Assembly: GCA_030037215.1 (NCBI GenBank)
Contig: JASHRS010000133.1
Location: 1-32,627, forward strand
From: Silvibacterium sp.
GTDB lineage: Bacteria; Acidobacteriota; Terriglobia; Terriglobales; Acidobacteriaceae
DNA length: 32,627 nt
Reading direction: 5' to 3'
Shown: one piece after another, positions 1,406 through 28,655 of the stretch
Position numbering within the stretch: position 1 is the first letter of the stretch
Layout of the letters: the number at the start of each line of letters is the position of its first letter
Made by a program: the position numbers and the translations under genes
Notes under the pieces: model-generated
What the model saw: the letters and a program-made list of their open reading frames with translations, nothing else
The model's database searches: none
Told to the model about the DNA's origin: nothing

Positions 1406-1431
1406 ACTTGCACTCTTAAAACTTGCACTCT
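1406..1431. repeat. Direct repeat ACTTGCACTCT x2, 15-bp period
   Basis: Two identical 11-mers, ACTTGCACTCT, occupy 1406-1416 and 1421-1431. The second overlaps the proposed -35 element of the nitrate reductase promoter, a common arrangement for an activator or repressor site. No known consensus is recognised. Confidence 0.6.
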
Positions 1432-1451
1432 GCAATTGACGCGGCTATGAT
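1423..1451 (+). promoter_or_regulatory. Predicted promoter of the nitrate reductase unit
   Basis: TTGCAC (1423-1428) and TATGAT (1446-1451) are separated by 17 bp. The -10 matches the sigma70 consensus at 5 of 6 positions; the -35 matches only at TTG, which suits a promoter needing an activator. Transcription would start near 1458 and leave a leader of about 155 nt containing the hairpins listed below. This is inferred from sequence only. Confidence 0.4.
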
Positions 1452-1467
1452 GAAGACACTTTCCTGC

Positions 1468-1490
1468 GACGCCACCCCGCCTGTGACGTC
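1468..1490 (+). promoter_or_regulatory. Leader stem-loop with CCCGCCT loop, shared with nirA leader
   Basis: GACG (1468-1471) pairs with CGTC (1487-1490). After a C-A mismatch, CAC (1473-1475) pairs with GTG (1483-1485) and closes the 7-nt loop CCCGCCT. The 13-mer CACCCCGCCTGTG (1473-1485) recurs exactly at 7268-7280 in the nirA leader, where it also folds with the same loop. It could be an RNA element or a dyad DNA operator. No known riboswitch family is recognised. Confidence 0.6.
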
Positions 1491-1517
1491 TTGACCACTC
1501 CATGATGAGCTTGTGTC

Positions 1518-1537
1518 CCGGAAGACGGCACTTCCGG
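1518..1537 (+). promoter_or_regulatory. ANTAR-target-like hairpin (hexaloop ACGGCA)
   Basis: CCGGAAG (1518-1524) pairs perfectly with CTTCCGG (1531-1537), closing the hexaloop ACGGCA. ANTAR antiterminators bind paired hairpins with six-base loops having A at position 1 and G at position 4, and this loop fits. The partner hairpin P1 is not canonical: the best candidate is CTC-CATGAT-GAG at 1498-1509, which has G4 but C instead of A1. The gene for an ANTAR protein lies about 3.8 kb downstream on the opposite strand. Confidence 0.6.
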
Positions 1538-1550
1538 TCGATCGGCTTTT
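1534..1550 (+). terminator. Possible short terminator alternative to the ANTAR hairpin
   Basis: CCGG (1534-1537), the 3' arm of the ANTAR-like hairpin, can instead pair with TCGG (1542-1545) around a TCGA tetraloop, followed by CTTTTG. The two folds exclude each other, as expected for antitermination. The stem is only four pairs including one G-U, and the U-tract is short, so this is a weak terminator on paper. Confidence 0.3.
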
Positions 1551-1612: not shown

Positions 1613-3166
1613 ATGAATCTACCTTTGCTGCAGCAAGCAACAGAGGATGGCGAACAATATCGTTTGACGCCAGCTGGCATAGTGCCACGCAGGGACCGCT
1701 GCGCGATCGCAGCAGAGGGTTCGAACCTCACTCCGTCGCGGCTGCCGCTTGCCGGCGAGCAGTACCGCTTTCATCTTGACATGGAAAGCTGTATCGGCTG
1801 CAAGTGCTGTGTAGTTGCGTGCAATGAGCAGAACGGCAACCCGGCAGACATTCAGTGGCGGCGTGTTGGCGAGATAGAAGGCGGGACTTACCCGGACACG
1901 GTGCGCCACTACCTCTCGATGGGCTGCAACCATTGCCTTGAGCCAACCTGCATGACGGGATGTCCGGTCAACGCTTACACCAAGGACGCTCTGACGGGCA
2001 TTGTGCTGCACAGTGCCGAGCGCTGCATCGGCTGCCAGTATTGCACATGGAACTGCTCCTATGGCGTGCCGCAATACAACCCGGAACGCGGCGTAGTAGG
2101 GAAATGCGACATGTGCTACGGCCGGCTCACGGATGGCCGTGAGCCGGCCTGCGTCTCAGCGTGTCCCGAAGAAGCGATTCGGATTGAGATTGTAAATACG
2201 TCCGAGTGGCGGCGTGGGTACGCAGCACAAGCTAATGCGCCCGGCCTGCCCAGCGCGGATGACAGCATTTCGACCACTAGGGTCTCACTTGACACGGCAA
2301 TGCTGCAGAACATCTCCCGTGTAGACACCTCACAAGTTGAACCTGAACATCCACACTGGACGCTCATTTTCATGACCGTATTCACCCAACTCGCTGTGGG
2401 AGCGATTGCCGCCATGTGGGCCTCGCAGGCATTTGCGCGAGTTGCTATCGCCCGCGTTCCTGCAGCGATCATCGTGCTCATCGCGATTCTGGCATTATGC
2501 GCATCAACGCTGCATCTGGGACGGCCAATCTATGCGTTTAGAGCCCTCAGTATGTGGCGACGCTCGTGGTTGAGCCGTGAGGTTCTCTTTTTTTCTCTTT
2601 TTGCAGCAGCAGCAATTGTTTATGCGGGCCTGCTCTGGGTTCATTCCGGATCCAGCCTTTACGCAGGAGCATGCGCAACCGTTCTTGGATTCGCGGCTGT
2701 ATATGCCAGCGCCCGCCTATATACCGTTGCAGCACGTCCCATGTGGAACAGCAGCCATACGTTTGCAGAGTTTTATTTAAGTGCGGCTTTCACCGGCACG
2801 ATGGTTTCCGCGTTGTTTACGTCGGCAACTAGCAATGCGCTATTGCAAATGACGGCATGGGCTGCACTGGCCATTGCTGCTCAGCAAGCTGTGAAGTTTG
2901 CATGGTTGTGGCATTCGCGCGTGTTTGAGCTGCGCGCAGCGGGCGAGCTATTGCGTTATCGTTTCCTGGGGATATTCCTGACGAGGCTTTATACGCTTCC
3001 GGCCCTCGCAGCTGTTCTATTGCTGCTCGATAGACAGCTATGGGTGCGGATCGCCTGTATAGCGGTTGCGATTGCATTAGAGCTGGCCGGACGCTATCTG
3101 TTTTTTGTGAGTGTTGTGCCAAAGAACATGGCTGCGCCGTATCTTCGGCAGAGACGAGCTGCATGA
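1613..3166 (+). CDS. Fused DmsB-DmsC-like protein: four-cluster ferredoxin plus membrane anchor, nitrate reductase electron donor
   Basis: The 517-residue product joins an iron-sulfur subunit to a membrane anchor. Residues 50-195 carry sixteen cysteines in four groups (C60/63/66/70, C105/108/113/117, C138/141/144/148, C165/168/180/184), the DmsB/NrfC pattern for four [4Fe-4S] clusters. From about 245 to 510 there are roughly eight hydrophobic helices, starting HWTLIFMTVF, resembling the DmsC quinol-oxidising anchor. These are normally two separate proteins. No Tat signal is seen, so the cluster domain should face the cytoplasm. Its stop overlaps the start of the next gene (ATGA), implying translational coupling and a complex with it. 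The inferred role is passing electrons from quinol to the nitrate reductase. GGAG sits 11 nt before ATG 1613, a slightly long spacing. Confidence 0.85.
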   Translation: MNLPLLQQATEDGEQYRLTPAGIVPRRDRCAIAAEGSNLTPSRLPLAGEQYRFHLDMESCIGCKCCVVACNEQNGNPADIQWRRVGEIEGGTYPDTVRHYLSMGCNHCLEPTCMTGCPVNAYTKDALTGIVLHSAERCIGCQYCTWNCSYGVPQYNPERGVVGKCDMCYGRLTDGREPACVSACPEEAIRIEIVNTSEWRRGYAAQANAPGLPSADDSISTTRVSLDTAMLQNISRVDTSQVEPEHPHWTLIFMTVFTQLAVGAIAAMWASQAFARVAIARVPAAIIVLIAILALCASTLHLGRPIYAFRALSMWRRSWLSREVLFFSLFAAAAIVYAGLLWVHSGSSLYAGACATVLGFAAVYASARLYTVAARPMWNSSHTFAEFYLSAAFTGTMVSALFTSATSNALLQMTAWAALAIAAQQAVKFAWLWHSRVFELRAAGELLRYRFLGIFLTRLYTLPALAAVLLLLDRQLWVRIACIAVAIALELAGRYLFFVSVVPKNMAAPYLRQRRAA

Positions 3167-5355
3167 ACTTTCGCCGTTTTCTGGGGCTGGATATTGCCCG
3201 TGAAAAATATGCGTTCGTCAAGGATGCTCTTGTGGGCCACGTCTCCGCGCAAAAAGCGGCGGATCGTTGGGTGAAAACAACCTGCGGGTACTGTTCGGTG
3301 GGATGCGGCATGATGCTTGGTTTGCGTGATGACAAAGTCGTTACGTCGCGCGGCAATCCAGACCACCCGGTGAATCGTGGAAAGCTGTGCCCAAAGGGAT
3401 TGGCCGAGCACTATGTTCTTGAAGCAGAGAATCGCGCAGTTTCTCCGCTGCTTCGACACGAGGGCCTGCTTACGCCCGTCTCATGGAACGATGCAATGAA
3501 AATCATGGCAGCTAAGTTTCGCAATGTTGCTGAGAAACATGGCTCGCAGGCAATCGGCGTTATCAGCACCGGACAAATGGTCACCGAGGAGTTTTATACG
3601 CTCGGGAAGTTGGTTCAGCTCGGGATAGGCACATCGAACTTTGACGGCAACACAACCCTTTGCATGTCGACGGCAGTTTCCGGTTACAAGCGGTCATTCG
3701 GCAGCGATGGTCCTCCAGGCGCATATGAGGACATGACGAAGGCTGACGTTGTGCTGCTGATAGGAGCTAACATAGCCGAAAACCACCCTATCCTTTGCCA
3801 GCACTTGGATGCGAACCCTGCGAAGACATTGATTGTGGCGGACCCGCGCGTGACGAAGACGGCCATGATGGCGGATATTTATCTGCCGGTCAAGCCACGC
3901 TCGGATCTTGCACTGATCAACGGAATCGCACACATTCTGATCCGCGACGGGCTAATTGATCGCGAATATATTCGAGACCATACGAGAGGGTTCGATGAGC
4001 TTTGTGAGTTTCTTGAAACATATGATTCTGAATATGTGAGCGGCATCACCGGTCTGAGCACCGAGTCAATCCACAAAGTTGCTCACCTGTATGGCAAGGC
4101 AAACGCTGCGTTCATAGGCTGGACGATGGGCGTGAACCATAGCTCGAAAGGCACCGAGACAGTCAATGCAATCAACAATCTTGCCCTGTTGACTGGAAAT
4201 GTGGGACGCGTAGGTGGAACACCGTTTTCAATTACGGGACAGTGCAATGCCATGGGCACGCGGGAGACAGGCTTCACATCCAGCCTGCCGGGTTATCGCA
4301 AATTTGAGAGCGCAGCCGACCGCGAAGAATTGGCAGCACTATGGGGCATCTCTGCGGACCGCATTCCCGCGGAGCGTGGCCTTGCTTATCCGGATATCAT
4401 CAGCGCGGTGCTCAAGAAAAAGATTCGCGCACTGTGGATTATTGCGACCAACCCTCTGGTTTCGTTTCCAAATATTGATGTATTGAAACAAGCGCTTGAT
4501 GAGCTGGAGTTTCTCGTTGTTCAGGATTGTTTTCATCCGACGCCCACAACGCAACTGGCAGATCTTGTGCTGCCGGCGGCCTCATGGGGAGAAAAAGAAG
4601 GCACGTACACTAACTCCGAGCGGCGCGTGAGCAAGGTGAATGCTGCTGTGCCGCCTCCGGGTGATGCGAAGAGCGACTTTGCAATCTTTCTCCAGCTGGC
4701 GGGTGAACTGGGCTGCTATGACGAGCTGTTCCCCGGATGGGAGACACCATGTGATGCCTTTGAGGAATGGAAGCGGGTTTCGGAGGGCAGGCTTTGCGAC
4801 TATTCAGGCATAACCTACGAAGCGCTGGAAGAAGTTGGTGGTATCCAGTGGCCATTTCCAAAAAACGCGAACAGCTCGCCTGAAGCGACAAGGCGACTAT
4901 ATGCTGACGGGGAGTTTGAAACAGACGACGGTAGGGCACGGTTCTTTTGTGCGGACTGGGAGCCGTTTCCTGAGCAGCCGAATGCGGATTTTCCATTTGT
5001 CCTGAATACGGGCCGGACCGTGGAGCACTGGCATACACGTACCAAGACCGGGGCGGTGGCTATTCTGCAACAATTGTCGCCGCGCGCATGGCTTGAGATG
5101 AATCCCATGGATGCCAGGCGTCTCTCGTTGCGGCCTCATGATCTTGTGGACGTGGTTTCTGCGCGGGGGCGTGTACGCCGCGTGGAGCTTCGTGTGACTG
5201 AGGTGATTGCGCCGGGCCAGGTTTTTGCGCCTTTTCACTTTGCCGAGTGGAATATCAATGAAGTGACACAAGACATCTTCGACCCTATTTCACGGGAGCC
5301 GAATTACAAACAATGCGCCGTGCGCGTGGAACTGTCATCTGCCGCGCAGGAGTGA
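3163..5355 (+). CDS. narB: Assimilatory nitrate reductase catalytic subunit (molybdopterin oxidoreductase)
   Basis: The start is moved from the track's 3040 to ATG 3163, which overlaps the previous stop and gives a normal 730-residue NarB/NasA-type protein. C41, C44, C48 and C76 (CGYCSVGC and later LCPKG) bind the N-terminal [4Fe-4S] cluster. C167 in TTLCMSTAV is in the position of the molybdenum ligand of the Nap/Nas family, followed by FGSDGPPGAYEDM. The C-terminal molybdopterin-dinucleotide-binding domain includes LNTGRTVEHWHTRTKTG and ends YKQCAVRVEL. It would reduce nitrate to nitrite in the cytoplasm. There is no signal peptide, which argues against a periplasmic Nap enzyme, and no C-terminal ferredoxin extension, consistent with electrons coming from the fused DmsBC-like partner. 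Formate dehydrogenase is the main family alternative, but the Cys ligand context and neighbours favour nitrate reductase. Confidence 0.9.
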   Translation: MNFRRFLGLDIAREKYAFVKDALVGHVSAQKAADRWVKTTCGYCSVGCGMMLGLRDDKVVTSRGNPDHPVNRGKLCPKGLAEHYVLEAENRAVSPLLRHEGLLTPVSWNDAMKIMAAKFRNVAEKHGSQAIGVISTGQMVTEEFYTLGKLVQLGIGTSNFDGNTTLCMSTAVSGYKRSFGSDGPPGAYEDMTKADVVLLIGANIAENHPILCQHLDANPAKTLIVADPRVTKTAMMADIYLPVKPRSDLALINGIAHILIRDGLIDREYIRDHTRGFDELCEFLETYDSEYVSGITGLSTESIHKVAHLYGKANAAFIGWTMGVNHSSKGTETVNAINNLALLTGNVGRVGGTPFSITGQCNAMGTRETGFTSSLPGYRKFESAADREELAALWGISADRIPAERGLAYPDIISAVLKKKIRALWIIATNPLVSFPNIDVLKQALDELEFLVVQDCFHPTPTTQLADLVLPAASWGEKEGTYTNSERRVSKVNAAVPPPGDAKSDFAIFLQLAGELGCYDELFPGWETPCDAFEEWKRVSEGRLCDYSGITYEALEEVGGIQWPFPKNANSSPEATRRLYADGEFETDDGRARFFCADWEPFPEQPNADFPFVLNTGRTVEHWHTRTKTGAVAILQQLSPRAWLEMNPMDARRLSLRPHDLVDVVSARGRVRRVELRVTEVIAPGQVFAPFHFAEWNINEVTQDIFDPISREPNYKQCAVRVELSSAAQE

Positions 5356-5368
5356 ATTTCCTGAAGCG

Positions 5369-6991
5369 TCACAGCTGCTTTGCCGCAGCGGCGCGTCGGA
5401 GCTCTTCGCCAAGCAGAACCGCCTCGGCAATCTCACGCATGCTTTTGCGGCGTTGACGGCTCTCCTTTTGCATCATGCGATAGGCGTCGTCTTCTTTGAT
5501 ATTGTGATCACGCTGCAGAAGCCCTTTTGCGCGCTCAATCAATTTGCGTGACTCAAGCTGCCCGGTGAGGGCGTCGCGCTCGCTTTCCAGCCGCGCCATC
5601 TCAATCTCTGCGCCTACAAGAAAGCCTACTGTGGAGATAGTCTGCATCTCCCACGGCGTATAGTTGTGAGGCTGGCGGTGCTGCACATTGATTACTCCAA
5701 CCAATCCTCCGCGCGCGAGGATCGGCACAGATAGAAACGCCTCAAAGGTGTCCTCCGGTAAATCCTTGAACATCTGGAAGCGTGGATCGCGCAGCGCACC
5801 TGAACTGATGGAGACCGGTTCCCGGTGCTCCGCAACCCAGCCGGTGATGCCTTGCCCGATCTCCAGCTCAAGGCGATCGATGACATCGGGGTGTGGGTTC
5901 TTCGAGGCACGAAGTACCAGCTGGTTTTCCTCGAGCACATAGATAAAGCAGGAGTCACAGCTCAGCAGCGTCTCAATGAAGCCGACAATCTGGTTGAGAA
6001 CGGCGTGCAGTGGATCAGAAGTAGCCATTCTGCGACCGATATCATGTACGATCCGAATTGCATTCAGGTGACGTGCATCGGGATGCCCGATGGCATCTAT
6101 TACAGTGACCTTTGCCGGAAGCGACGTTAGCGCTTTCTGCGACGCTGCTTTGCGTTTTTCCTGAAGCAGACGCGGTGCGCAGTCTGCAGCCTCATTAATC
6201 AAAAAGCCCATTTTCGGATGCGACGGCTCAAAGTCCGGTTCAACACCATGACGCGAAAGCTCCTCTGAAGTGCTCGGTCCGATCGAAAGGATCACGGTTT
6301 TCCGCAAGCCGTCAAGCAATGCCTGCGTGGAATTCATCATCTCTGCGACGCGGAACAGATGTACGACTTGAATCGCGGTCAGAAAGATTACAACGTCAAT
6401 TTTCCCTTCAGCAATCGATCGGACCGAGTTACGCAATGGCTCTAAATCATCCGGTAAGGCCCATTGGTAAACCGGAACACGCGTCCACTCCACCAGATGG
6501 CGGCTTAGCGCAGCTAGGAGATCTGGGTTGGTTGTGCCGTATTCCTGCACCGCGGCGCGCAGGCCTTCCAGCGAAGGGCCAAATGCCGCGTCGAGTGCAC
6601 TGATCACCTCGCGCCATGTGCATGGTTCGGGAGCAGTGACTGCAACCGGCAGTCCAAGCTCGCGCAATGCCGCACTGGACTTAGGCCCGCGCGCGGCCAG
6701 CTTGACGCGGCGCAATGATTCCAGTATCTGCGAGCGTTCGAATCGCGATCCGAGAATGTCCATGAGTCTGCGGATGCCGACGCCGGTGGTAAAGATAATA
6801 AGATCGAATTCTCCGTCTAGCAGGCGACGCCCGAATTCAAATGCCTCGTGGTTTGACTCGAGAGGGATTTCGCGCATGGCAGGTGCGACTGTGGGATTGC
6901 CGCCGTAAGTTCGAATGAGCTTGGATATCTCATCGGCACGACGGTTTTCAAGCGCAAGGACTTTCATTCCATTCAAGCTGCCAATCGCCAT
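5369..6991 (-). CDS. HemD-like / GAF / ANTAR putative antitermination regulator of nitrate assimilation
   Basis: From ATG 6991 the product has 540 residues. About 1-260 resemble uroporphyrinogen-III synthase (start MAIGSLNGMKVLALENRRAD; FTTGVGIRRLMD). About 330-475 form a GAF domain (LSCDSCFIYVLEE ... GQGITGWVAEHREPV ... SVPILARGGLVGVINVQH). The last 70 residues are an ANTAR RNA-binding domain (LIERAKGLLQ, EDDAYRMMQKESRQRRKSMREIAEAVL). ANTAR proteins bind nascent-leader hairpins and prevent termination; NasR of Klebsiella does so for nitrate genes. HemD-like domains also occur in the actinobacterial nitrite/nitrate regulator NnaR, where they are regulatory. The gene lies between the two assimilation units, convergent to narB and divergent from nirA. 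The track's ATG at 7066 lacks an SD and its first 25 codons look like promoter sequence. The ligand, and whether the HemD domain is catalytic, are unknown. Confidence 0.85.
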   Translation of the reverse strand: MAIGSLNGMKVLALENRRADEISKLIRTYGGNPTVAPAMREIPLESNHEAFEFGRRLLDGEFDLIIFTTGVGIRRLMDILGSRFERSQILESLRRVKLAARGPKSSAALRELGLPVAVTAPEPCTWREVISALDAAFGPSLEGLRAAVQEYGTTNPDLLAALSRHLVEWTRVPVYQWALPDDLEPLRNSVRSIAEGKIDVVIFLTAIQVVHLFRVAEMMNSTQALLDGLRKTVILSIGPSTSEELSRHGVEPDFEPSHPKMGFLINEAADCAPRLLQEKRKAASQKALTSLPAKVTVIDAIGHPDARHLNAIRIVHDIGRRMATSDPLHAVLNQIVGFIETLLSCDSCFIYVLEENQLVLRASKNPHPDVIDRLELEIGQGITGWVAEHREPVSISSGALRDPRFQMFKDLPEDTFEAFLSVPILARGGLVGVINVQHRQPHNYTPWEMQTISTVGFLVGAEIEMARLESERDALTGQLESRKLIERAKGLLQRDHNIKEDDAYRMMQKESRQRRKSMREIAEAVLLGEELRRAAAAKQL

Positions 6992-7024
6992 GTCTTTATT
7001 CTTTACCGAAATTATGTAATATGC

Positions 7025-7053
7025 GTCATAATTCTGACCTGTATCGCTTGCAA
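7025..7053 (-). promoter_or_regulatory. Predicted promoter of the HemD-GAF-ANTAR gene
   Basis: On the minus strand TTGCAA (7048-7053) and TATGAC (7025-7030) are spaced by 17 bp, each matching the sigma70 consensus at 4 of 6 positions. It lies upstream of ATG 6991 and inside the track's longer ORF, which supports the shorter start. Confidence 0.35.
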
Positions 7054-7081
7054 CTATTACGCACATAAATATTTCTAATGG

Positions 7082-7260: not shown

Positions 7261-7290
7261 GCTTTGGCACCCCGCCTGTGCCATTAAAGC
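7261..7290 (+). promoter_or_regulatory. nirA leader hairpin A with the shared CCCGCCT loop
   Basis: GCTTT (7261-7265) pairs with AAAGC (7286-7290), and GGCAC (7266-7270) with GTGCC (7278-7282); a 3-nt ATT bulge lies on the 3' side and the loop is CCCGCCT. The core CACCCCGCCTGTG is identical to the nitrate reductase leader. The outer pairs differ in sequence between the two sites while some pairing is kept. Confidence 0.6.
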
Positions 7291-7313
7291 CTGACGCTGC
7301 TGCGTGCAGGCTT
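7287..7313 (+). promoter_or_regulatory. nirA leader hairpin B, overlapping hairpin A
   Basis: AAGCCTG (7287-7293) pairs with CAGGCTT (7307-7313), and ACGC (7294-7297) with GCGT (7302-7305), around a TGCT loop with one bulged G. Its 5' arm shares 7287-7290 with the outer stem of hairpin A, so complete A and complete B cannot form together. No U-tract follows directly. Smaller hairpins follow at 7364-7377 and 7399-7412. Confidence 0.5.
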
Positions 7314-7440
7314 CCAACGCTCCCTGGTGAGCAATCGCGAACAGTTCAGTTTCTTGCTCAATGCGGGCCCTTGCCCGTTACAGCTACGCAGAGAACTGGC
7401 AGGCATTCCTGCTGGATTTCTTGGCGCAGGGAGATTCGAC

Positions 7441-9234
7441 ATGGCAGTACCGGAAACGCTTGCGTTGAAGGAGATGCAGGACACCCTCACAGTCGAGCAA
7501 AAAGAATATCTGGCCGGGTTTCTCCTCGCTGTAGCAAAGCGCGGGCCTACATTTTTCGCAGGACATACGGCGGACGGGCGTATTACGGCAGACCCCGGAT
7601 CGGTCGTACCAAACGCGGCTGCTGCTGCCGGGCAGGATTTGTGGTTCGGTACGCCAACGGATGAACTTTGCAAGGAAGAGTGCTGGAAGCTGCAAGAGAA
7701 TCCACTCGATATGTGGGACAAGCTTCTTGCGCACTCAGCGGAAAACCGCTTTCCAGAAGGCGCCGACATCTTTCGCTTCAAATATCACGGCCTTTTTTAT
7801 GTCGCGCCTGCGCAAGACTCCTTCATGCTGCGTCTACGTGTGCCAGGATGCATTCTTACTAGCCGTCAATTGCGAGGCCTTGCCGACATGGCCGAAGACT
7901 GGGGTGCTGGCGAGGCGCACGTCACCACGCGAGGCAACATTCAGATTCGTCAGTTTCAGCCGAAAGACATCATCAACGTACTGATGAAGGTTCAAAGTCT
8001 GGGCATGAGCTCGCGCGGTTCGGGCGCAGATAATATCCGCAACATCACTGCCACACCAACCAGCGGCATTGACCCAACCGAGCTGTTTGATGTTGCTCCG
8101 ATGGCCCAGGCGCTGAATTTTTACATCCAGAATTCGCGCGACTTGTATGAGCTCCCGCGAAAGTTCAACGTTGCCTTTGACAGTGGTGGCGCCATTAGCG
8201 TTGTGGCGGATACGAACGATATTGCCTTCATTGCGGTGCGTGTTCCTGAAGACCGGAGCATACCTGCGGGAATATATTTCCGCGTACAACTCTGTGGAAT
8301 CACGGGGCACAAACAGTTCGCGAGTGACAGCGGACTTTTGCTTACGCCAAGCCAGACGGTAGCGGTTGCTGCGGCCATGATTCGTATCTACATACAGAAC
8401 GGCGATCGCACGGACCGCAGGAAAGCACGGCTGAAATACCTGATTGATCGCTGGGGAACGGAGAAGTTTCTCGAAGAGACAGAGAAACTTCTTACCTTTC
8501 CTCTTATGCGTGTCTCTGTTGACGAATGCGAGCCTCGCTTGGCAGTCGACCGGCAAGGACATCTGGGCATTCACCCGCAGCGCCAGCCGGGCTTGTTCTA
8601 CATGGGGGCCGCGTTGCCAGTTGGGCGGATGAGTACAGCACAAATGCGTGCGATTGCCGACATTGCCGACACCCATGGCTCCGGTGAAATACGGCTGACA
8701 GTATGGCAGAACCTAATTTTGACAAATATCCCGGCTGGGAAACTCCAGGCGGCTCGACAGGCTTTAGCCGACGCTGGTCTTAGCGATTCGGCGAGTACCT
8801 TCGCAGCGGGAACCATTGCATGCACCGGCAATCGGGGTTGCAGGTACTCGGCAACCGACACCAAAGCGCACGCGCTTGAACTGGCTGGCTTTCTTGATGA
8901 ACGGTTCAAGATTCAACAACCGGTCAATCTACATGTGACGGGATGCCCACACTCGTGTGCACAACATTACATCGGAGATATTGGCCTGCTGGGCACAAAG
9001 ATCGGGGGTGAAGAAGGCTATCAGGTATTGATCGGCGGCGGGTCGGATGAGCGACGGGGACTGGGCCGCGAGTTCATACCTGCAATCCGCTTCGAAGATC
9101 TTCCACCAGTGCTGGAAGAATTCTTCAGGCTGTTTGAAGAGAAACGCGACGAAGGCGAATCGTTCCTCGACTTTACGCGGAGACATGAAATTAGGCATCT
9201 CAGAGAGATGCTCTCAATAAAGGAGCAAGCGTAG
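7441..9234 (+). CDS. nirA: NirA-type siroheme nitrite reductase
   Basis: The product is 597 residues from ATG 7441, which has AGGGAG seven bases upstream; the track's GTG at 7327 has no SD and would add a leader-like 38 residues. Two nitrite/sulfite reductase half-domains are visible. The siroheme-[4Fe-4S] ligands are C461 and C467 (CTGNRGC) and C502 and C506 (TGCPHSCAQHYIGDIG). RNITATPTSGIDPTE near residue 200 fits the NirA family. It should carry out six-electron reduction of nitrite to ammonium in the cytoplasm. Sulfite reductase is the main alternative because the folds are shared and the partner is CysJ-like, but the setting beside narK and a nitrate reductase favours nitrite. It ends 3 bp before the diflavin reductase gene, so the two form one operon. 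Confidence 0.88.
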   Translation: MAVPETLALKEMQDTLTVEQKEYLAGFLLAVAKRGPTFFAGHTADGRITADPGSVVPNAAAAAGQDLWFGTPTDELCKEECWKLQENPLDMWDKLLAHSAENRFPEGADIFRFKYHGLFYVAPAQDSFMLRLRVPGCILTSRQLRGLADMAEDWGAGEAHVTTRGNIQIRQFQPKDIINVLMKVQSLGMSSRGSGADNIRNITATPTSGIDPTELFDVAPMAQALNFYIQNSRDLYELPRKFNVAFDSGGAISVVADTNDIAFIAVRVPEDRSIPAGIYFRVQLCGITGHKQFASDSGLLLTPSQTVAVAAAMIRIYIQNGDRTDRRKARLKYLIDRWGTEKFLEETEKLLTFPLMRVSVDECEPRLAVDRQGHLGIHPQRQPGLFYMGAALPVGRMSTAQMRAIADIADTHGSGEIRLTVWQNLILTNIPAGKLQAARQALADAGLSDSASTFAAGTIACTGNRGCRYSATDTKAHALELAGFLDERFKIQQPVNLHVTGCPHSCAQHYIGDIGLLGTKIGGEEGYQVLIGGGSDERRGLGREFIPAIRFEDLPPVLEEFFRLFEEKRDEGESFLDFTRRHEIRHLREMLSIKEQA

Positions 9235-9237
9235 CGT

Positions 9238-11037
9238 ATGACGGCAGATCTCGTTCCATATATTCCTGAAGACGCGCCGTTCTCTCCTGCTCAGCGATCC
9301 TGGCTCAATGGCTATCTTGCCGGTCTTTATTCCTATGCTCCAGCGAAAATGGCCGAGGCCCAGCCATCGCTGCAGTTGGCGGTGCTTTATGGCTCGCAGA
9401 CCGGTACTGCGGAAGGGTTAGCGCGGAAATTTTCAAAAGAGCTGAAAGCTGCCGGACATACTGTGACGCTGACATCACTCGAAGGTTATGTCCCGGCCAC
9501 ACTCGCTGCGGAAAAATACGCTCTGTTTATTGTCTCGACTTATGGAGAGGGAGAAGCACCTGACGTAGTGCAGCCGTTTTACCAGCAGCTATGCGTAGAG
9601 CATTTTCCATTACTCCAAAATCTTTCTTATGCCGTGCTTGCGCTCGGCGATTCGCACTATGAACATTTTTGCCAGTTCGGGAAGGACCTCGATAAGAAGC
9701 TTAATGCATTGGGCGCAACCCCCATTATCGATCGCGTGGAGTGCGATATAGATATTGATGCTCCGTATGCCATGTGGAAGCAGGTCATAACGGGAAAGCT
9801 TGTTGAGCTCGCGTCAGGGCAATCACCGTCAATAGAAAAACCCGATACACATGGAGCAGAGACCCCAGCAGCATCGGATCATTACGGTTCATCCCCCCAA
9901 AAGGGGGCACTCGTACATACGCGTGACAATCCATTTTTTTCACCACTCGCCGAAAAGCGTGCGCTCACTCATCCAGCGTCGAGCAAACTAACCATTCATC
10001 TCGATTTCGAGATTGAGGGTTCAGCCATCCAATACGAAGCGGGAGATGCCTGTGGCGTGATTCCGCAGAATAGCCCTGATCTTGTCGATGCACTCCTCGG
10101 CCTGCTCCCTTTCAGCGGAGGCGAGGCAGTTGAGGTTCCAAAAGTCGGTAGTGTTGCCTTGCGTGATGCTTTACTCCATCACTTTTCCGTTACCCGGCTC
10201 ACTCGCAAAATCATTGCGGATTACGCAGCCCTGGCACAGTGTTCTCGCCTCGGTGCAATGCTTGCACCTGATAATCATCCCGAATTGGAGAAGTATCTGC
10301 ATGGACGTGATCTTGTCGATCTTTTGCGGCAGTGTCCGGGCGTTCTGAAAAAACCTGAGGATTTGATAAAGATGCTGCCCCGTCTAGTGCCGCGGCTCTA
10401 TTCGATATCATCCAGTCCTGCGGCCCATCCTGGCCGGATTCATACTACTGTTTCCGTTGTAAAGTACGTTTCGCACGAGCGTGAACGTGGGGGTGTGTGT
10501 TCCACACTACTAGCTGACCGCGTGGCTGTTGGCGACCGGCTGCCTATCTATATCCAGCCGAACAAGAAGTTCCGTCTACCGAAAGATGCGTCAGCTCCCG
10601 TAATTATGGTGGGGCCCGGCACAGGGATTGCTCCGTTCCGTGGATTTTTGCATGAACGGCGCGCCACAGCTGCTTCAGGACGCAACTGGCTTTTCTTTGG
10701 AGAGCGCAGTGCCGCAACAGATTTTCTCTATCAAGACGAGTTGCAGGTTATGGCGCGCGATGGACTCCTGACCCGGCTTGATACTGCTTTCTCGCGTGAC
10801 CAGGGCCACAAAATTTATGTGCAGGACCTGATGAGGCAAAACGCTCGACAGCTTTGGGCATGGTTGCAGGAGGGAGCGTTCCTTTATGTCTGTGGTGACG
10901 CCTCGCGTATGGCAAAGGACGTGGATCGTGCGTTGCATCAAGTGATAGAAGTGGAAGGAAATATGTCCCAGGCAGATGCCGGCAATTATGTGGGAGCACT
11001 CAAGGATGGTCACCGTTATCAGCGCGATATTTACTAG
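9238..11037 (+). CDS. CysJ-like NADPH diflavin reductase, probable electron donor to NirA
   Basis: The 599-residue product has a flavodoxin domain (about 47-190, LAVLYGSQTGTAEGLARKF), an FAD-binding connecting region (about 220-440, RLYSISSSP near 386), and an NADPH-binding domain (GPGTGIAPFRGF near 459; FLYVCGDASRMAKDV). It ends with an aromatic Tyr, as in CysJ and cytochrome P450 reductases. The N-terminal FSPAQRSWLNGYLAGL segment is typical of bacterial CysJ-like proteins. Its length matches CysJ (about 600). It follows nirA by 3 bp, with AAGGAG inside the nirA end. The likely role is passing NADPH electrons through FAD and FMN to the siroheme enzyme, replacing ferredoxin. It could also serve an unlinked sulfite reductase. 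Confidence 0.88.
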   Translation: MTADLVPYIPEDAPFSPAQRSWLNGYLAGLYSYAPAKMAEAQPSLQLAVLYGSQTGTAEGLARKFSKELKAAGHTVTLTSLEGYVPATLAAEKYALFIVSTYGEGEAPDVVQPFYQQLCVEHFPLLQNLSYAVLALGDSHYEHFCQFGKDLDKKLNALGATPIIDRVECDIDIDAPYAMWKQVITGKLVELASGQSPSIEKPDTHGAETPAASDHYGSSPQKGALVHTRDNPFFSPLAEKRALTHPASSKLTIHLDFEIEGSAIQYEAGDACGVIPQNSPDLVDALLGLLPFSGGEAVEVPKVGSVALRDALLHHFSVTRLTRKIIADYAALAQCSRLGAMLAPDNHPELEKYLHGRDLVDLLRQCPGVLKKPEDLIKMLPRLVPRLYSISSSPAAHPGRIHTTVSVVKYVSHERERGGVCSTLLADRVAVGDRLPIYIQPNKKFRLPKDASAPVIMVGPGTGIAPFRGFLHERRATAASGRNWLFFGERSAATDFLYQDELQVMARDGLLTRLDTAFSRDQGHKIYVQDLMRQNARQLWAWLQEGAFLYVCGDASRMAKDVDRALHQVIEVEGNMSQADAGNYVGALKDGHRYQRDIY

Positions 11038-26445: not shown

Positions 26446-28655
26446 TGCGGCCAAGGACAGTCAATCTTCTTACAGTTATTGCTTTATCTATTGCGCTCAG
26501 TTCAGTTCTTCTGCAATCGCCGCATACAAGTGTTCATGCTGCGGCAGATCAGGTTACGTTCAACCGGCAGATTGCGCCGATCATTTACAACCACTGCAGC
26601 AGTTGCCATCACCCTGGCGGTGCGGGTCCATTCAGCCTTTTGACGTACGCGGATGCGAGGCGGTGGGGAACAGTGATCGAGAATGTAACGCAGAGCCGGT
26701 TCATGCCCCCATGGCTACCCGCGCCTGGTTATGGCAGCTTCGCCGATGATCGGCGTCTTCCCGACGAAGATGTGCAATTGATTAAGAAGTGGGTTACAGC
26801 CGGGATGCCGGAAGGAGATCCCGCAGATGCACCCAAGCCACCAGTCTACTCAACGGACTGGGTGCTTGGCCCGCCGGACTTGATCCTTAAAGTTCCACTG
26901 CCGATGCAGGTTCCACCTTCCGGCACAGACCTGTTTCAAAATTTCATCCTGCCTGTTCCAATTACTCAGACAAAATATGTTCGCGCCATGGAAATCAAGC
27001 CCGGTGCACCTAGGGTAGTTCATCATGCGAACATCATCGTTGATCGCACGGCCTCTCTGCGACACCAGCATCCGAACGACTGGCAAGAGGGTATTCCTGG
27101 AATGGAGGTAATGTTCGATTCAGGCGATACCTTCGATCCCGATAGCCATTTTTTATTCTGGAAACCAGACACGCCTGCCCTAATCGAGCCTGAGGGCATG
27201 CCGTGGCGTCTCGATCCGGGAAATGATCTTGTCCTGAATATGCATCTGAAACCTACAGGCAAGCCAGAAACGGTGCAAGCCACTGTGGGTCTTTATTTCA
27301 CGAATAAACCGCCTGTGGCTCATCCCATGCTTCTGCAGCTTGAGGATGACGCAGCTCTCGACATTCCTGCCGGAGACCCACACTTTGTTATCGAGGATCA
27401 CTTGAAGCTTCCTGTCGCTGTCGATGTGCTCGGCGTGTATCCGCATGCCCACTATCTCGGCAAAAAGCTGGAAGGTTATGCCATTCTTCCCGGCGGCGAA
27501 AAGAAATGGCTCATCCTTATTCCCAACTGGGACATTGACCGCCAGTCAGTCTATCGTTATAAATCGCCGATCTTTTTGCCGAAGGGAAGCGTAATTTATA
27601 TGCGCTACACCTATGATAATTCTGCGGCCAACATTCACAATCCCAACAGCCCGCCGATTCGGGTTCGAGCCGGAAACCGCTCGGTGGACGAAATGGGTCA
27701 TCTTTGGCTGCAGGTTCTGCCTCAACCGATTCCCAACTCTGATGAGGACCCGCGACTCCTTCTCGAGCAGGCTTGGATGGAAAATCGACTCAGCAAGGAT
27801 CCTAACGATGAGACTGCACTCTACAATCTAGCCTCGGTCAAAATGAGTGAGAGCGACTTCACTTTCGCGACCGATCTCTATCGTCGCATCCTGACTGGCA
27901 GCCCTGAAGATACTCGTACGTTAACTGCTCTCGGAACTGCGCTCGATAAAGATGGGAATTGGGAGGGTGCGGAATCAGAATACCAAAAGGCGTTGGTATC
28001 AGATTCCCAGTATGCCGATGCACATTTTGATCTTGCGCAATTGTATTTCAAACACAACAGCTATGCTGCTGCTGAACAGGAATACCGCAGTCTTCTCGTC
28101 GAAGACCCCAAGGATGCCGCTGCTCATAATGGCCTAGGCGCTGTTCTGCTCGCCACGAATCGGATCGCGGAAGCACAGAACGAGTTTCAAGCTGCCATCT
28201 CGTTTGATCCGGACAGTTTCGATGCCCTTTACAACCTGGCGAGCATTGAGGCTTCCGACAAGAACTACCCTCAAGCTATCGGTCTATTACAACAGGCACT
28301 GAAACAGAAGAACGATGCTGACGCGCATCAACTTCTGGGAAGTATCTACATTCAGTCCGGCAGGCTTGGGGACGCCCTGCAACAGTTCAAAGTTGTTCAG
28401 GAGTTGCGACCCCAAGATCCTTTGCCACACCGCCAGCTTGCGCAGTTGTACGATCAGATTGGCCAATTAAACGATGCAATCCGTGAACTCAACGCGGCTC
28501 TCGCGTTGGAACCAGGCAATGCCGATGATTGGAATAACCTGGGTGTGCTTCAGGCTAGGGCAGGAAATACTGCGGCTGCCCGCAAAGACTTTGAACACGC
28601 TTTGACCCTCGATCCACAACACGCTGCCGCGCGTGCCAATCTGGCGCGCCTGTAG
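26442..28655 (+). CDS. Heme c / PHM-like type-2 copper monooxygenase / TPR fusion protein
   Basis: Starting at ATG 26442 (ATGA overlap), the 737-residue product has a signal sequence, then a single heme-binding CSSCH (52-56) of the planctomycete-cytochrome type (VTFNRQIAPIIYNHC; GPFSLLTYADARRWG). A copper type-2 ascorbate-dependent monooxygenase-like region follows. The ligands expected from peptidylglycine monooxygenase (PHM) can be matched: HH in RVVHHANI, H in LNMHLKPTGK, HxH in PHAHYLGK and Met in DEMGHLW. From about residue 440 there are TPR repeats to the end (AAARKDFEHALTLDPQHAAARANL). Such proteins are seen in Acidobacteriota and Planctomycetota but their substrates are not established. 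The track's 26421 start is possible but has GGTAGG too close to be a good SD. Confidence 0.8.
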   Translation: MMRPRTVNLLTVIALSIALSSVLLQSPHTSVHAAADQVTFNRQIAPIIYNHCSSCHHPGGAGPFSLLTYADARRWGTVIENVTQSRFMPPWLPAPGYGSFADDRRLPDEDVQLIKKWVTAGMPEGDPADAPKPPVYSTDWVLGPPDLILKVPLPMQVPPSGTDLFQNFILPVPITQTKYVRAMEIKPGAPRVVHHANIIVDRTASLRHQHPNDWQEGIPGMEVMFDSGDTFDPDSHFLFWKPDTPALIEPEGMPWRLDPGNDLVLNMHLKPTGKPETVQATVGLYFTNKPPVAHPMLLQLEDDAALDIPAGDPHFVIEDHLKLPVAVDVLGVYPHAHYLGKKLEGYAILPGGEKKWLILIPNWDIDRQSVYRYKSPIFLPKGSVIYMRYTYDNSAANIHNPNSPPIRVRAGNRSVDEMGHLWLQVLPQPIPNSDEDPRLLLEQAWMENRLSKDPNDETALYNLASVKMSESDFTFATDLYRRILTGSPEDTRTLTALGTALDKDGNWEGAESEYQKALVSDSQYADAHFDLAQLYFKHNSYAAAEQEYRSLLVEDPKDAAAHNGLGAVLLATNRIAEAQNEFQAAISFDPDSFDALYNLASIEASDKNYPQAIGLLQQALKQKNDADAHQLLGSIYIQSGRLGDALQQFKVVQELRPQDPLPHRQLAQLYDQIGQLNDAIRELNAALALEPGNADDWNNLGVLQARAGNTAAARKDFEHALTLDPQHAAARANLARL

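Follow-up and report, generated by a model that had tools for sequence, protein, structure and literature searches.

Known ANTAR target RNAs present hexaloops with A at position 1 and G at position 4, A1 and G4 (PMC3369931). SELEX with NasR selected C:G closing pairs (PMC7496416), and the first hairpin (P1) of eutP has AC/GU closing pairs (PMC3369931). In the crystal structure of EutV bound to RNA, G4, on Tyr164, makes the sole base-specific contact and A1 is uncontacted (PMC8934654). The A1U substitution in eutP reduces induction (PMC3369931).

The window, that is, the whole stretch of 32,627 nucleotides analysed here, is acidobacterial as judged by its relatives. The genes that matter for the comparison are the following.

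Window start, minus strand: NarK-like transporter
1613..3166, plus strand: 4Fe-4S/DmsC-like electron-transfer subunit, the presumed regulated gene (Pfam)
3040-5355, plus strand: molybdopterin nitrate reductase, next after the 4Fe-4S/DmsC-like subunit (Pfam)
5369..7066, minus strand: HemD-GAF-ANTAR regulator (Pfam)
7441..9234, plus strand: nirA, for a siroheme nitrite/sulfite reductase, probably starting at ATG 7441 (Pfam and sequence)
9238-11037, plus strand: CysJ-like flavoprotein, after nirA

The original prediction had placed an ANTAR gene in the same island as the nitrate reductase, and it is indeed there, between the nas and nirA operons and on the strand opposite to both. It is the sole ANTAR gene detected when its own genome, 89% complete, was searched. 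The ANTAR domain of its product (PF03861) scores 64.0 bits against a curated cut-off of 27.3; Pfam gives HEM4, GAF and ANTAR matches only, with no nitrate-sensing NIT domain. The protein thus fuses a uroporphyrinogen-III synthase-like HemD part, GAF and ANTAR in one regulator. Since a separate hemD is present elsewhere in the genome (contig 94), the HemD part is probably sensory. Genomic linkage makes this protein the likely RNA-binding partner of the leaders described below.

The leader of the nitrate reductase operon had been read as an ANTAR antitermination leader in which a hairpin at 1518-1537 serves as the docking site. Our analysis suggests that the system was probably identified correctly and its docking hairpin wrongly: the conserved G4 hairpins are those at 1468-1490 and 1498-1509. 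We aligned five nas leaders (the window, L032, L034, L035 and L036), picked solely by protein similarity; L035 is a locus of the cultivable Paracidobacterium acidisoli 4G-K13. Together with predicted folds, the alignment defines these features of the window leader.

1423..1451, plus strand: putative promoter TTGCAC-N17-TATGAT (five-leader alignment)
1468..1490, plus strand: P1 hairpin GACGcCAC-CCCGCCU-GUGaCGUC, seven-base loop with C1 and G4 (minimum-energy fold; covariance model R1)
1498..1509, plus strand: P2 hairpin CUC-CAUGAU-GAG, hexaloop with C1 and G4 (fold of 1458-1512; loop pattern)
1507..1548, plus strand: competing terminator-like fold, GAGCU 1507-1511 with GGCUU 1544-1548, which takes the 3′ arm of P2 (folds of 1458-1552 and 1505-1552)
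1518..1537, plus strand: first-noticed hairpin, which forms the apex of the competing fold; its loop, ACGGCA, is unconserved (fold and five-leader alignment)
1547..1550, plus strand: short, weak U run closing the competing fold (sequence)

Common to all five leaders are TTGnnn-N17-TATnnT, a P1 loop CNNGNCU, a short linker (7 nt in the window), CTCCAYGAYGAGC at P2, and a third hairpin with a variable loop. The promoter columns CTTG...TAT..T are invariant and would place the transcription start near 1458; a start downstream of 1518, which according to the original prediction would speak against it, is unsupported. A consensus promoter scan did not report 1423-1451, because the −35 box matches the consensus at only 3/6 positions. 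Both P1 and P2 are closed by C-G and carry G at loop position 4, with C and not A at position 1. G4 is present in both loops, and C:G closure in P2, in 5/5 of these unselected leaders. Conserved P1 and P2 supply the two tandem stem-loops, each of at least 3 bp, by which ANTAR targets are recognised. R1, a covariance model of nine group-A leaders, matches 1469-1513 with 56.5 bits, the window itself being included in the model.

RNAfold predicts P1 and P2 for 1458-1512. For 1458-1552 it keeps P1 and pairs 1507-1511 with 1544-1548 around 1518-1537, followed by UU and GC. P2 and the competing fold are thus predicted to be mutually exclusive. Mutually exclusive folds had been proposed for this leader before, and in that respect the proposal agrees with ours; the better-supported pairing, however, encloses 1518-1537 instead of breaking it. 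Equivalents of the competing fold are found in L032 (alike, with more U), L034 (AGCC/GGCU) and L035 (GAG/CUU), with no clear counterpart in L036. In the five-sequence alignment A10, which makes for a weak test, 88% of cells in the lower stem are paired and one pair is changed on both sides. A simple terminator scan of 1380-1630 gave no match. The whole nas leader of the window folds no better than shuffled sequences (z 0.06), and 1505-1552 has a z of −1.9. Intrinsic termination is the least secure step of the model, because the nas leader has a poor U run and most nirA and group-B leaders have none.

The window contains a second copy of the hairpin pair, in the nirA leader.

7266..7282, plus strand: second copy of P1, GGCAC-CCCGCCU-GUGCC (R1)
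7319..7332, plus strand: second copy of P2, GCUC-CCUGGU-GAGC (R1 and sequence)

Here R1 matches 7264-7335 with 48.8 bits, this sequence again being part of the model, and the linker between the hairpins is 36 nt. In both leaders of the window, some 100 nt separate P2 from the start codon. R1 also picks up the nirA leaders of L033, L032 and L109, as well as a copy upstream of narK, on the opposite strand, in L035; in relatives the P1/P2 pair precedes narK too. The narK leader of the window itself has no covariance-model match. Upstream of narK, L035 (7584-7629) and L138 (1501-1583) have a P1-like hairpin together with a P2 unlike the CNNGNN hexaloop.

How often the element recurs was assessed in several ways, in loci many of which are metagenome-assembled. 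Of 74 nitrate-gene leaders, 26 contain the P2 pattern CTCCNNGNNGAGC, where dinucleotide shuffles would give 0.15, and leaders with the pattern are associated with loci that have an ANTAR gene (Fisher p = 2.4e-7). The association has exceptions. In L093 and L107-L110 it is the nirA leader that has a C1/G4 P2 loop, and for L061, L070 and L078 the available upstream sequence is short. L080 has an ANTAR gene in the locus without the pattern, and the Bryobacteraceae-like L059, L071, L079 and L092 have a P2-like hairpin without an ANTAR gene in the locus. A count of CTC-N6-GAG, in which the loop is left free, points the same way: where a HemD-GAF-ANTAR gene is present, C1 and G4 occur together in 20/23 nas and 17/19 nirA leaders, or 37/42 overall, against 112/856 (13%) at large, a figure that itself includes true sites.

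Group-A leaders and the divergent group B were modeled separately, because MAFFT alignments that mix P1 types, or P1 loops of six and seven bases, shift the stems. A second covariance model, R2, built from 17 sequences, was run over 299 genomes of the class. On E-values that are rough owing to a short calibration, it gave nine strong matches in eight genomes besides that of the window: eight at E < 0.005 and a second copy in G263 at E 0.021, counted as strong for its position in the same nitrate island. Each of the nine has an ANTAR gene on its contig at a distance of no more than about 5 kb (G307, G156, G242, G069, G266, G107, G125 and, twice, G263). Eight lie directly upstream of nirA, and the second G263 copy lies between narK and the gene for the 4Fe-4S subunit. 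In these genomes the independent group-B model R3 (P1 CCGGC-YCNGNNN-GCCGG) gave one strong match, in G290 (E 6.6e-12), with an ANTAR gene 1.9 kb away. Class and phylum matches with E above about 0.005 were taken as noise, the inspected class matches having no window genes adjoining, with the exception of a weaker R2 match in G296 (E 0.029) that has nirA downstream and an ANTAR gene next to it. G057 and G318 (R2, E 0.006-0.01), without adjoining window genes, were discarded in this way, as was a match on contig 267 of the window's own genome (E 0.05).

The closing triplets of P1 differ among copies (CAC/GTG, GGC/GCC, TAC/GTA), differences that in sequence are compensatory, i.e. covariation; within the nine-sequence alignment A6, covariation is modest. 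We also tallied 39 curated copies. The P1 loop has seven bases in 22, six in 16 and eight in one, and starts with C in 27/39 and U in 12/39; the P2 loop has six bases. A C:G pair closes P1 in 39/39, and C:G closure of P2 was fixed by the search pattern. As the curated copies were selected partly for the features tallied, the five-leader alignment, the free-loop count and the genome searches carry less bias. The P1-P2 linker is very variable and, in nirA and group-B leaders, exceeds the 2-25 nt of canonical ANTAR targets.

Taken together, these observations make it probable, though well short of certain, that the P1/P2 leaders are an ANTAR-antitermination element, a C1/G4 variant with loops of six or seven bases, and the target of the HemD-GAF-ANTAR protein. 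The leaders at 1458-1612 (nas) and from about 7264 (nirA) would carry the tandem-hairpin target of the regulator encoded between them. When active, the regulator would bind the C-G-closed G4 loops of P1 and P2 and hold P2. In the nas leader, P2 so held would keep its 3′ arm from pairing with 1544-1548, the terminator-like fold would be prevented, and transcription would continue. Without active regulator the competing fold would form and expression would presumably stop through termination. Through its GAF or HemD-like domain the regulator may sense nitrate, nitrite or a tetrapyrrole as the signal. A bolder version is more doubtful than probable, and we offer it tentatively: that the ANTAR target has been recoded in Acidobacteriota (C1/G4, seven-base P1 loop) and is read by a HemD-GAF-ANTAR protein, a one-component regulator whose uroporphyrinogen-synthase-like sensor ties siroheme/tetrapyrrole supply or nitrite to expression of nirA and nitrate reductase.

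Could 1518-1537 nevertheless be the ANTAR P2 hexaloop, sequestering part of a terminator through CCGG/TCGG pairing? The hairpin is as striking as originally described, with a perfect 7-bp stem around an A1/G4 hexaloop (CCGGAAG-ACGGCA-CTTCCGG). It is also rare by chance: hairpins with at least 7 Watson-Crick pairs closing such a loop number two on the plus strand of the window against 0.17 expected from dinucleotide shuffles. The other one (ATACCAA-AAGGCG-TTGGTAT, at 27987) lies within a coding region and is probably due to chance. The case weakens once relatives are aligned, as the original prediction had advised. The four closest relatives whose leader can be read keep the stem (bulged in L032) but not the loop, which is ACGGCA in the window, ACAGCGC (seven bases) in L032, CATGGA in L034, TGATT in L035 and AACA in L036. 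Loss of the A1/G4 loop in relatives is an outcome that the original prediction itself had named as refuting it. Moreover, the CCGG/TCGG re-pairing shrinks to CCG/CGG, 3 bp. The nas leader has no second A1/G4 hexaloop able to act as the missing canonical P1, and the conserved G4 hairpins lie upstream. Canonical A1/G4 dual hexaloops were sought in both window leaders and found in neither. We consider a docking role for 1518-1537 very unlikely; most likely it is the apex of the competing terminator.

A different possibility accepts the dual hairpin as an ANTAR target but lets it act on translation or Rho and not on intrinsic termination, the third hairpin being merely structural. The weak or absent U runs fit such a mode of action, and overlap with the ribosome-binding site is frequent among actinobacterial ANTAR RNAs (PMC8164766). 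The distance between P2 and the start codon in both window leaders speaks against it. So does the lower stem into which the 3′ arm of P2 is drawn, since most nas relatives retain it. We regard this mode of action as possible but doubtful. It is unlikely that the element is a small ligand-binding riboswitch, or the RNA target of another protein, that merely lies near ANTAR genes. Loop position 1 is off the ANTAR rule, and C or U there does count against an ANTAR reading, because A1U lowers eutP induction; the variable linker, the frequent seven-base P1 loops and the Arg at the position of EutV Met172 could be held against that reading as well. Against a riboswitch or another protein, conservation is confined to loops, closing pairs and stems, linkage to ANTAR genes is tight, G4 and C:G closure fit known ANTAR targets, and there is no Rfam match. 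That the hairpins are coincidental features of an ordinary leader is hardly credible: the folding energy of the whole leader is indeed ordinary (the z of 0.06 given above), but the idea is already contradicted by the dozens of leaders in which the hairpins are conserved, far more than shuffles would give. An ANTAR-antitermination element thus remains our preferred reading of the P1/P2 leaders.

In the open-access literature, which alone cannot prove novelty, we found neither ANTAR RNAs of Acidobacteriota nor any HemD-GAF-ANTAR regulator described, and no paper on a C1/G4 element with six- or seven-base loops, for which there is no Rfam family either. The Rfam comparison suggested by the original prediction gave no match at the gathering score for the window; among nine relatives its one match was a tRNA. 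If the preferred reading is true, ANTAR RNA regulation extends to a major soil phylum, where it defines a nitrate-assimilation regulon (nas and nirA, with narK in relatives) under a HemD-GAF-ANTAR regulator. It would also mean that the A1/G4 rule tolerates another base in place of A1, with G4 and C:G closure retained, and such a natural variant would make the role of A1 directly testable.

Two further kinds of leader were seen before the gene for the same nitrate reductase subunit. In other acidobacteria, L054 (340-540) and L069 (1130-1335) have a canonical-looking A1/G4 hairpin with an AATGYC loop and a stem of 9-10 bp, together with a second hairpin, whose A1/G4 loop has seven bases, and a long hairpin resembling a terminator. 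Both loop types, A1/G4 and C1/G4, may therefore occur in the phylum. In Bryobacteraceae-like loci, a strongly conserved ACAAACGGGTTTTCCGGGGCAATCCCGG is followed by a GCTCC-rich hairpin (L059 7700-7860, L071 7720-7880, L079 7655-7815, L092 7700-7860), possibly another structured leader; that of L079 has no Rfam match.

Among described systems, NasR/nasF of Klebsiella oxytoca shares with this locus tandem C:G-closed G4 hairpins before a nitrate-assimilation operon, an ANTAR-domain regulator and a competing terminator-like fold (PMC7496416, PMC3369931). It differs in that here loop position 1 is C or U and not A, the P1 loop often has seven bases and the U run is weak. Moreover, the regulator here is a HemD and GAF protein without a Pfam NIT match and has Arg where NasR has Met. 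EutV/eutP of Enterococcus faecalis likewise has dual hairpins with G4 in both loops and a P2 that overlaps the competing fold (PMC3369931, PMC8934654), and the AC/GU closing pairs of eutP P1 are those of many P1 copies here. The eut loops, however, have A1 and a linker of 5-12 nt, and EutV has a receiver domain. At the level of residues, the equivalent of EutV Tyr164 is kept in the ANTAR domain of the window, whereas Arg168 is replaced by Gln and Met172 by Arg. Arg at the latter position is found in nearly all acidobacterial ANTARs examined; it was considered as a specific partner of C1 loops and set aside, shorter ANTAR proteins of other acidobacteria also having Arg.

Actinobacterial ANTAR-target RNAs offer the third comparison. 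They too have diverged loops and stems and are mostly without recognisable terminators (PMC8164766). Their consensus keeps A1/G4 above 50% (PMC8164766), whereas A1 is in neither loop of the 39 curated copies here, which were selected partly on loop bases. Since the defining A1 was looked for and is absent, we do not class the P1/P2 element as a canonical ANTAR target. It is best called an ANTAR-target variant which, by analogy with these systems, would work like a canonical one.
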